A stretch of DNA of 64,000 bases from an uncultured Pelagibacteraceae bacterium (GTDB taxonomy: Bacteria > Pseudomonadota > Alphaproteobacteria > Pelagibacterales > Pelagibacteraceae): the NCBI GenBank assembly GCA_902635845.1, contig CACPPK010000003.1:1-64000 (forward strand), given 5' to 3'. Below the pieces are notes generated by a model. The model worked only from the letters and a program-made list of their open reading frames with translations. It made no database searches and was not told the origin of the DNA. This document shows, piece by piece, positions 10,408 through 55,424 of this stretch. Position numbers and translations under genes: made by a program. Positions within the stretch are counted from its first letter, which is position 1, and the number at the start of each line of letters is the position of its first letter.

Positions 10408-10986
10408 TCAAATTTGTTTAATAGATCTAATGTCTCTATAAGGAAGCAGAGAAATCAAGGTTTTAACATCAATTTGCTTATAGGGATGGATCCAATTTTT
10501 TTGAATCTCAAATAATGGAAATAATACAAAGTTTCTTTTGTGCATCATTTTGTGAGGTAAATTAATTTTAGAATTTTTTTTCGATACCAATTTATTAAAA
10601 TCGATTATATCTAAATCACATGTGCGAGGAGCATTTTTTTTTGCTTTTTTTCTACCTAATTGAATTTCTATAGTCTTACAAATTTTTAATAGTTCTTGAG
10701 GATTGTAATAGCATTTTAATTTTAAAATTATATTTAAGAATCTAGGCTTTCTTGGATCAGGCCAGGAAGGGGTTTCATAATAACTAGATACCGAGAGAAC
10801 ATCTAAGTTATGTTCTGCTAATAAAAATTTTGCTTTTTCTATATTTGTTTTTCTTTGACCTAAATTTGAACCTATTCCTAAAAAAACAATTTTAGCTTGA
10901 TTTTCTAATATATCTTGCCTTTTCACGGTTCCAATCTCTACTTTTTTTTGTTGCTCTTTTATCATATTGCTTTTTGCCTTTTGCAA
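10408..10986 (-). CDS. folK: HPPK (2-amino-4-hydroxy-6-hydroxymethyldihydropteridine pyrophosphokinase); start uncertain
   Basis: [44 protein letters not shown]. Confidence 0.92.
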
Positions 10987-11362
10987 CAGCTAGTTCTATT
11001 TTAGCCTTTCCTTTTTTAAAATACATTTTCGTTGGAACTAATGTGAAACCATCTCTTTGCATTTTACCTATCAATTTATTTATTTCTTTTTTATTAAGTA
11101 GCAATTTTCTATCATCTGTTGGATTATGATTAGAGTAACTGGCTTGCTTGTATGGCGATATATGTGAATTAATTAAAACAATTTCACCTCCCTTTTCAAC
11201 AGCATAAGACTCAGCGATATTAACCTTGCCCTCTCTTACTGATTTAATCTCTGATCCCTTTAAAACAATTCCAGCTTCAAAAATATCTTCAAAAAAATAG
11301 TTAAAACTAGCTTTTCTGTTTAAACAAATCATTTTCAAACCAGGATTGGTTTTTTTGTTCAT
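10892..11362 (-). CDS. smpB: SsrA-binding protein SmpB
   Basis: [25 protein letters not shown]-terminal [21 protein letters not shown]. Confidence 0.96.
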
Positions 11363-54038: not shown

Positions 54039-54596
54039 ATGCAAAATTTAATTATATATAAATTCAATCCACTTTATCATATCATAAAAGAAATTGAGAA
54101 TGATTTAAATTTTACAGTCATTGAAATAACTAGTGAAAAAGTTTTATTTAAAAAAATTAAATCATTAAGTAATTACTTAATAATTTCCAAAAACAAAAAT
54201 TTAGATTTAAGTAATCAAATTATTTTCAAAAATTTTCCGATCAAAATAAAAAAACTAATTGAAAAATTGAATATTGAATTTTTAAAAATAAAATTTAGTC
54301 ATCAATCAAAAATTAAAATTAAAAACTACATGATTGATTTAAATTCTAGAATTATTTCATTCAATAATGATAATTTAAAACTTACTGAGAAGGAAATAAA
54401 TACAATTATTTACCTATCAAATAGCAATCAACCAATTAGCATAAAGGAACTACAAAGTGCAGTATGGGGATACCAATCTAATATGGAAACTCATACTGTG
54501 GAAACACATATATACAGATTGAGAAAAAAAATTTTAAATACATTTAAAGATCAAAATTTTTTAATGAGTAGAAAGGATGGCTATTTAATAAATTAA
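54039..54596 (+). CDS. OmpR-type winged-helix protein with degenerate receiver-like N-terminus
   Basis: LTEKEINTIIYLSNSNQPISIKELQSAVWGYQSNMETHTVETHIYRLRKKI; no recognisable Asp phosphoacceptor motif. Confidence 0.8.
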   Translation: MQNLIIYKFNPLYHIIKEIENDLNFTVIEITSEKVLFKKIKSLSNYLIISKNKNLDLSNQIIFKNFPIKIKKLIEKLNIEFLKIKFSHQSKIKIKNYMIDLNSRIISFNNDNLKLTEKEINTIIYLSNSNQPISIKELQSAVWGYQSNMETHTVETHIYRLRKKILNTFKDQNFLMSRKDGYLIN

Positions 54597-54603
54597 AAAA
54601 TAA

Positions 54604-55218
54604 TTACTTAAAATTATTAATATTAATATTAAAACTTATTACTACTCTATCTTCATTAGATTTATTTTCCTCTACACCGTGTGGCAAGTAAGCTGGAAAA
54701 AGTAATAAGTCTCCTTCTTCGATTTCTAATCTTGCAACTTTTAAATTAAATTCAGTTGGCCGCTCTAAAACTGGATAACTGTGCCTGCTTATAGAAAGAG
54801 GATTTTCGACAATAAATTTTCCGCAATCTTTAGGCGCTTTAACATAATATGCTGCGCTGAGATAAGAATTTGGATGTGTATGAATTGTATTGAAGTCATT
54901 TTTTTTGTTTATTATTGACCACATTTCGGTACAGATTACTCTACTTGGATCTAATTTCCATCCAAAAGCTTTTATTGCATCAAAAACATGTTTAGTAGTT
55001 TCCAATAAAAATTTGTGTTGTATTGAATTTGTATCTTTTAAATCAAAAGGTTTTGAATGCCAGCCTCCTTTATTTGATCTTTGTATACCACTTTTATCTT
55101 CATTATATAGTTTATATATGTAATTCGATAATTTTTCGTTGTACTCTTTAAAATTATCAACTTTATATTTAAATACTGGTTGTGGAAAAAAATTTAATGT
55201 TTCTTTTTGATTAATCAT
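54604..55218 (-). CDS. 2OG-Fe(II) oxygenase family protein
   Basis: HTHPNSYLSAAYYVKAPKDCGKFIVENP; GDLLLFPAYLPHGVEENKSNEDRVVISFNIN. Confidence 0.8.
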   Translation of the reverse strand: MINQKETLNFFPQPVFKYKVDNFKEYNEKLSNYIYKLYNEDKSGIQRSNKGGWHSKPFDLKDTNSIQHKFLLETTKHVFDAIKAFGWKLDPSRVICTEMWSIINKKNDFNTIHTHPNSYLSAAYYVKAPKDCGKFIVENPLSISRHSYPVLERPTEFNLKVARLEIEEGDLLLFPAYLPHGVEENKSNEDRVVISFNININNFK

Positions 55219-55307
55219 TTTAAGTTTAAGATCTTATATTACGAAAAATAAAAATACAACTTTAGATTAACATGATTATAATTGTTTAATGATTAATATT
55301 TATTGTG

Positions 55308-55424
55308 ATGAAAAATATAAAAAAAAAAAATCCATATTTAGAAAAACTTTTTACAAAAAAATATAAACCAAAAATAATTAAGCCCAAAAAAGGAAAGGGT
55401 AGTTTTAAAAGAAAAAAAAGTTAA
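55308..55424 (+). CDS. 38-aa ArfA-like alternative ribosome-rescue factor
   Basis: MKNIKKKNPYLEKLFTKKYKPKIIKPKKGKGSFKRKKS*; KKGKGS(Y/F)xRK is the ArfA signature. Below the size cut-off of the ORF track. Confidence 0.6.
   Translation: MKNIKKKNPYLEKLFTKKYKPKIIKPKKGKGSFKRKKS

Follow-up and report, generated by a model that had tools for sequence, protein, structure and literature searches.

A short conserved gene in SAR11

The window analyzed here is a stretch of 64,000 nucleotides (positions 1 to 64,000 of contig CACPPK010000003.1) from an uncultured Pelagibacteraceae bacterium, a member of the abundant ocean bacteria known as SAR11, whose genome assembly (GCA_902635845.1) spans 1.09 Mb in 30 contigs, is 76% complete, and clusters with named Pelagibacteraceae records. 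The features considered below, one of them outside the window, are the following.

10892..11362, minus strand: SmpB, the tmRNA partner in the main rescue pathway (ORF translation recognized as SmpB)
54039..54596, plus strand: Trans_reg_C winged-helix protein (PF00486, E 2.5e-12)
54604..55218, minus strand: 2OG-Fe(II) oxygenase gene, between the regulator and arfA (PF13759, E 6.6e-24)
55219..55307, plus strand: 89-nt upstream region of arfA, between the divergent oxygenase gene and arfA
55308..55424, plus strand: arfA-like coding sequence, 38 amino acids (aa) plus stop (PF03889 match, conserved frame, dN/dS about 0.11)
55329..55412, plus strand: ungapped core N8-R35 (relatives' alignment, profile match to solved ArfA)
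55386..55406, plus strand: KKGKGSF block (near-invariant in 30 relatives; channel position from PMC5378476)
55427..56356, minus strand: PfkB-family kinase gene, convergent, a conserved downstream neighbor (PF00294, E 3.9e-46)
G000:C2:130889-131941, elsewhere in the same genome: prfB, encoding RF2 (over the TIGR00020 cutoff; W319, F217, SPF, and GGQ kept)

The arfA-like frame opens with an ATG at 55308, runs for 38 codons on the plus strand (ATG AAA AAT ... AGT TAA), closes with a stop codon at 55422-55424, and translates as MKNIKKKNPYLEKLFTKKYKPKIIKPKKGKGSFKRKKS. The initial annotation had placed an uncalled 38-aa ribosome rescue protein here, ending 2 nt from a convergent kinase gene, and both the frame and the 2-nt distance to the PfkB stop were found as described. 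The nearest named relatives, which begin MKKLNKKNPYL..., support the ATG start.

Lysine makes up 42% of the peptide, a composition that can yield false matches and that could point to a spurious lysine-rich frame in AT-rich DNA. Against a profile of its relatives built without the window row, however, the window frame scored 56.8 bits, with the next best of 1,006 window frames at 6.6, and E. coli ArfA scored 29.0 bits against the full SAR11 profile, with the best of 5,000 shuffles at 10.1. Gaps of 50 bits over decoy frames and about 19 bits over shuffles indicate that composition is not the source of the match. The frame was kept in 120 loci representing 118 distinct core DNA sequences, and among these the mean pairwise difference over the 28-codon core was 0.16, 0.12, and 0.42 at codon positions 1, 2, and 3. 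The dN/dS ratio of the core was about 0.11, compared to 1.12 in an AT-biased neutral simulation, so this part of SAR11 arfA is under strong purifying selection. Eight alignment columns are invariant across 30 SAR11 relatives, K27, K28, G29, G31, S32, and R35 among them. Selection together with the shuffle and decoy scores refutes the spurious-frame explanation, to which we assign a negligible probability.

Relationship to ArfA

ArfA frees ribosomes stuck on broken messages. Assignment of the peptide to this family, as first proposed, was borne out by profile searches: the window protein matched PF03889 at 23.0 bits (E 5.4e-5), slightly below the curated cutoff of 25.5, while 9 of 10 tested relatives exceeded the cutoff (26.1 to 32.0 bits) and all 30 aligned relatives matched the model. 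The form found in genome G061 and gp63 of phage HTVC034P also passed the cutoff, and an NCBIfam search with the window protein returned no match. As relatives pass the Pfam threshold, automatic annotation has probably already named some SAR11 copies ArfA wherever the ORF was called. Two PHROG families of unknown function, phrog_20887 and phrog_37108, also match SAR11 ArfA.

A profile built from SAR11 sequences alone found the solved E. coli ArfA chains (E 2e-6 to 8e-6) over 33 residues without a gap, pairing N8 with N14, L14 with L20, Y19 with F25, and K27-S32 with K33-S38 (window residue first). The core N8-R35, common to SAR11 relatives, accounts for most of the stretch that aligns with E. 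coli ArfA (N14-R41), and the KKGKGSF block is the counterpart of the E. coli mRNA-channel segment K33-Y39, in line with the KKGKGSYxRK similarity noted at the outset. The companion suggestion that NPYLEKLF corresponds to the E. coli DPLF element did not survive alignment, since N8 pairs with N14 and Y19 with F25; the counterpart of D22-P23-L24-F25 is T16-K17-K18-Y19, a TKKY motif that many phages and some relatives have as TPKY.

In structures of E. coli ArfA, residues 31 to 48 lie in the mRNA tunnel and residues 21 to 30 in the A site, with residues 25 to 29 joining the RF2 β-sheet (PMC5378476), and both segments are present in the SAR11 sequence. The remaining contacts involve an N-terminal minidomain with the small A18 in its core, where the substitution A18T abolishes activity, and a hydrophobic patch of L19, L24, and F25 on RF2 Trp319, these three residues contacting RF2 W319, V198, and F217 (PMC5378476). 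The ungapped alignment places E12, K13, and K18 of the window peptide at A18, L19, and L24, and E. coli residues 1 to 6 have no counterpart. The minidomain, as read from this alignment, would thus be the weak point of the assignment. F25 (as Y19) and the neighboring L20 (as L14) are the RF2-facing positions that are kept, and the patch is not known to be needed across the family. At the other end, the peptide is lysine-richer than E. coli ArfA, but its last residue corresponds to K44, and the shortest E. coli truncation reported to be active ends three residues later, at Asn47 (PMC5378476).

A basic channel-binding tail is not by itself proof of RF2 recruitment, and the peptide could instead be a rescue factor whose channel-binding part is homologous to ArfA but whose biochemical class differs, working with both RF1 and RF2 like Francisella ArfT or through RF2 contacts in the style of BrfA. 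ArfT, also of about 40 aa, has a KGKGS-like tail and uses RF1 or RF2 (PMC6299226), and two of the three E. coli patch positions (L19 and L24) are charged in the SAR11 peptide. Yet the similarity to ArfA reaches past the tail to N14 and L20, and RF2 of the order retains the ArfA-contacting F217 and W319, which makes a different class unlikely in our judgment. RF2 was found in this genome and in 10 others that were tested; where RF2 sequences from the order were compared (six distinct ones), F217, W319, SPF, and GGQ are kept, with V or I at position 198.

Distribution and loss

A protein search recovered the frame in 30 of 37 genomes of the same genus (E 5e-12 to 2e-6 outside the window's own), and a 30-row profile run over 297 sampled genomes of the order recovered an arfA-like gene in 220, including 119 of the 150 high-quality ones. 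The frame is therefore both conserved and, at a dN/dS near one-tenth, selected across SAR11. Where arfA is lacking, the Trans_reg_C gene in several genomes runs straight into the kinase gene, and one genome (G063) carries an apparent short remnant, MVIKLNKKFT followed by a stop. Genomes without arfA fall in three places on a tree of the neighboring kinase, which gives about three losses as judged from this single gene tree. The first description, of a minimal ArfA retained in a streamlined genome, is thus supported as to the minimal protein but too narrow as to its range: arfA is a family-wide SAR11 gene with a conserved neighborhood, several losses, and relatives in marine phages, pelagiphages among them.

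In a sister family and one further genus (f2 and g6; L251, L253, L254, L256, L257, and L258), short ORFs keep the pattern NP[IV]A+xLRTxK[YF] and have KKK where KGKGS stands elsewhere, in variants such as MKRNPIAKALRTPKFKKKVIKDKKKYNRKK. Dismissal of these weak matches as noise was abandoned once the sequences were read, and they appear to be diverged ArfA-like genes. DUF7230 (PF23876) matches the KGKGS-less variant of genus g6 at the DUF7230 cutoff, and E. coli ArfA weakly; it may be an ArfA-related family.

Published accounts place ArfA in gammaproteobacteria, some betaproteobacteria, and a few Bacillus (review, PMC8012679; survey, PMC11633108), and the 2024 survey of 15,259 genomes reported arfA in 0 of 2,376 alphaproteobacteria (PMC11633108). 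A family-wide SAR11 arfA contradicts that zero, and a chromosomal SAR11 arfA appears unreported in the literature that we searched. The ArfA family itself is known; what seems new here, from sequence comparison, is the same core with a reduced N terminus and no non-stop feedback. We also considered a wide alphaproteobacterial distribution and rejected it: PF03889 exceeded its cutoff in 8 of 385 genomes of the class, two of them SAR11, and the more sensitive SAR11 profile matched 10 non-SAR11 genomes of the class sample, some of them contaminated or with long frames. ArfA outside SAR11 is rare in this sample.

Other rescue factors

SmpB was found at the position first given for it, but not beside arfA, as the two genes lie about 44 kb apart. 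As listed, the SmpB ORF runs about 95 nt into the beginning of the folK-like ORF that follows it (10408-10986), whose true start is probably further downstream. The check for ssrA and arfB elsewhere in the genome returned the former and not the latter. The tmRNA lies at G000:C14:31117-31416, and the two-piece form of alphaproteobacteria is present in this genome and most sampled relatives, including 18 of 18 high-quality ones. All 20 arfA-less genomes tested keep tmRNA, which fits ArfA as a dispensable backup.

No ArfB was found over the NF006718 cutoff in any of 297 genomes of the order, where matches corresponded to the GGQ stretch of RF1 or RF2; applied to 385 alphaproteobacteria, this model detects ArfB in 128, which shows that it performs in this class. 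The 38-aa protein itself contains no GGQ and is distinct from ArfB (YaeJ), which has a GGQ catalytic domain and about 140 aa. Absence of ArfB was rejected as a SAR11 peculiarity, since 257 of the 385 evenly sampled alphaproteobacteria also have no match over the cutoff.

Gene neighborhood and regulation

Among named relatives, the Trans_reg_C gene lies directly upstream of arfA in 72 of 80 loci, and across 118 loci the arfA start precedes the Trans_reg_C stop in 104, commonly by 20, 8, 4, or 1 nt. This overlap suggests translational coupling of arfA to the upstream gene. The two genes are about 660 to 690 nt apart in the other 8 of the 80 named relatives and 711 nt apart in the window, where the gap is filled by the oxygenase gene at 54604-55218, which breaks the otherwise conserved overlap in this lineage. 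With this gene in between, the window arfA must be expressed on its own, by separate transcription or translation, and the 89 nt at 55219..55307 would have to hold its promoter and ribosome-binding site. No confident consensus promoter was found in those 89 nt, and no terminator-like site was found near the window arfA.

In E. coli, a hairpin within arfA yields a non-stop mRNA and thereby places the gene under tmRNA control (PMC8012679). The hairpin z score was −5.3 in the 3′ region of E. coli arfA, compared to +0.63 for the window gene and a mean of +0.71 over 119 SAR11 loci; a stable hairpin in the 3′ coding region was absent from the window and from 118 of the 119 loci, with one below a z score of −2. 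The SAR11 peptide also has no hydrophobic C-terminal tail. The lack of the extended tail used for tmRNA-dependent control, as first described, is thus confirmed. Because the message lacks an internal hairpin and the protein lacks an unstable tail, tmRNA failure is not expected to switch the gene on. Hairpin absence marks SAR11 arfA as a variant rather than placing it outside the family, since the hairpin is a regulatory trait, known from the members studied, that is not needed for rescue.

Relatives in marine phages

Relatives of SAR11 arfA are encoded by at least 162 marine viral contigs and by the isolated phages HTVC027P (gp30), HTVC034P (gp63), Roseobacter phage CRP-212, and Caulobacter phage Cr30. 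The genes of the isolates stand as hypothetical proteins or unannotated frames, except that gp30 of HTVC027P was named ArfA in a transcriptome study, which found it highly expressed in both early and late infection (PMC12753301). A tblastn search of phage records with the window peptide returned nothing, probably due to low-complexity filtering; a phage form with less lysine, used as query, recovered HTVC027P and others. HTVC027P and HTVC034P infect SAR11, and their proteins match PF03889 and share the ArfA core of the SAR11 gene, which reads NPxAKxxRTPKYKxxxxKPKKGxGSFKR in gp30. Unlike the SAR11 protein, gp30 has 58 aa and is extended at its N terminus by KWDGRSRPATDKYKEEWNRIF, and its gene overlaps that of the terminase small subunit.

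Phage forms vary in context and length. In T4-like marine viral contigs (L098:4048-6122 and L082:4043-7117), an ArfA-like ORF stands beside clamp-loader genes, in the order gp44 (phrog_168), ArfA-like ORF, gp62, and regA (phrog_225 and phrog_242), and several forms of this type share a C-terminal tail like EPDDGWSGIV. Other forms occur in L105, L134, L146, L148, L149, and L150 and in L095, L103, L114, and L141; some are frames of 124 to 138 aa with the ArfA-like core near the N terminus, most ending around NEAGNYTKPGMRKRIFNRIKAGG, and others have an N-terminal PGKWDG+SR extension. Comparison of phage and host rests on about 30 aligned residues, too few for a reliable tree.

The abundance of close viral relatives, together with the strong expression of HTVC027P gp30 early and late in infection (PMC12753301), raises the alternative that the SAR11 gene is a domesticated phage gene whose product binds ribosomes for other ends, such as biasing translation, and performs no rescue. 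We regard this as very improbable. The gene is family-wide, occupies one conserved chromosomal neighborhood in the main genus, is under purifying selection, and has been lost cleanly from several lineages, a pattern that does not resemble a recent prophage remnant; that phage forms keep the ArfA core argues for the same activity in both.

Proposed function

Proteins of the ArfA family are unstructured off the ribosome, and rescue factors of this kind have low compatibility across species (PMC6881298). On the evidence of sequence, the SAR11 gene probably encodes a minimal ArfA that would act in RF2-dependent rescue as a backup to tmRNA-SmpB. When a ribosome reaches the end of an mRNA that has been truncated, the C-terminal half of the peptide, which is rich in lysine (KPKKGKGSFKRKK), would enter the mRNA channel left vacant in the 30S subunit, and LFTKKYKPKII would lie in the decoding center and add a strand to the β-sheet of RF2 domain 2. 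These two steps follow from homology to a structurally solved family; channel binding appears well supported, and RF2 recruitment is likely. The reduced N-terminal segment KKNxxxKxL and Y19 may then touch RF2, the likely target being the switch-loop Trp, and favor its open form, so that the GGQ motif hydrolyzes the peptidyl-tRNA. Such a backup to tmRNA-SmpB would take the role of ArfB in many other alphaproteobacteria, and in most SAR11 the level of ArfA would follow the upstream Trans_reg_C gene through translational coupling.

More tentatively, and with less than even confidence, we propose that this minimal ArfA replaces ArfB and, being free of tmRNA feedback, is made continuously, coupled to the regulator, and acts beside tmRNA in normal growth. 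In the same proposal the gene belongs to a pool shared with marine phages, which would supply the same factor during infection.

A family-wide ArfA in a group without ArfB alters what is known of where a core translation-quality system occurs. SAR11 also offers a natural ArfA without tmRNA feedback, the feature taken as the sign of a backup role, and could show how little of ArfA suffices to activate RF2. With the ArfA core also present in viruses of SAR11, phage and host may plausibly interact at the level of ribosome rescue.

Comparison with known systems

The closest known system is E. coli ArfA (YhdL), with which the SAR11 protein shares the 33-residue ungapped match, the KKGKGS[YF]xRK block, N14, L20, and an aromatic residue at F25; the contacted RF2 residues are present, and each gene is convergent with its downstream neighbor (mscL in E. 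coli). The SAR11 protein differs in having 38 rather than 72 aa, six fewer N-terminal residues, and no A18, L19, or L24, in lacking the hydrophobic C-terminal tail and the RNase III/terminator hairpin, with no tmRNA feedback expected, and in its alphaproteobacterial host and its Trans_reg_C and PfkB gene neighbors. ArfT of Francisella tularensis is similar in its size of about 40 aa, its KGKGS-like basic tail, its going unannotated in many genomes, and its function as a backup to tmRNA in an ArfB-less small genome (PMC6299226). However, the likeness of ArfT to ArfA is confined to the tail, and ArfT works with RF1 or RF2, whereas the homology of the SAR11 protein spans the ArfA core and the Pfam model is matched. 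The Bacillus subtilis factor BrfA is likewise small, recruits RF2, and places a basic tail in the mRNA channel, but unlike the SAR11 protein it has no sequence relation to ArfA, has a helical N terminus, and is translated from non-stop mRNA (PMC6881298).
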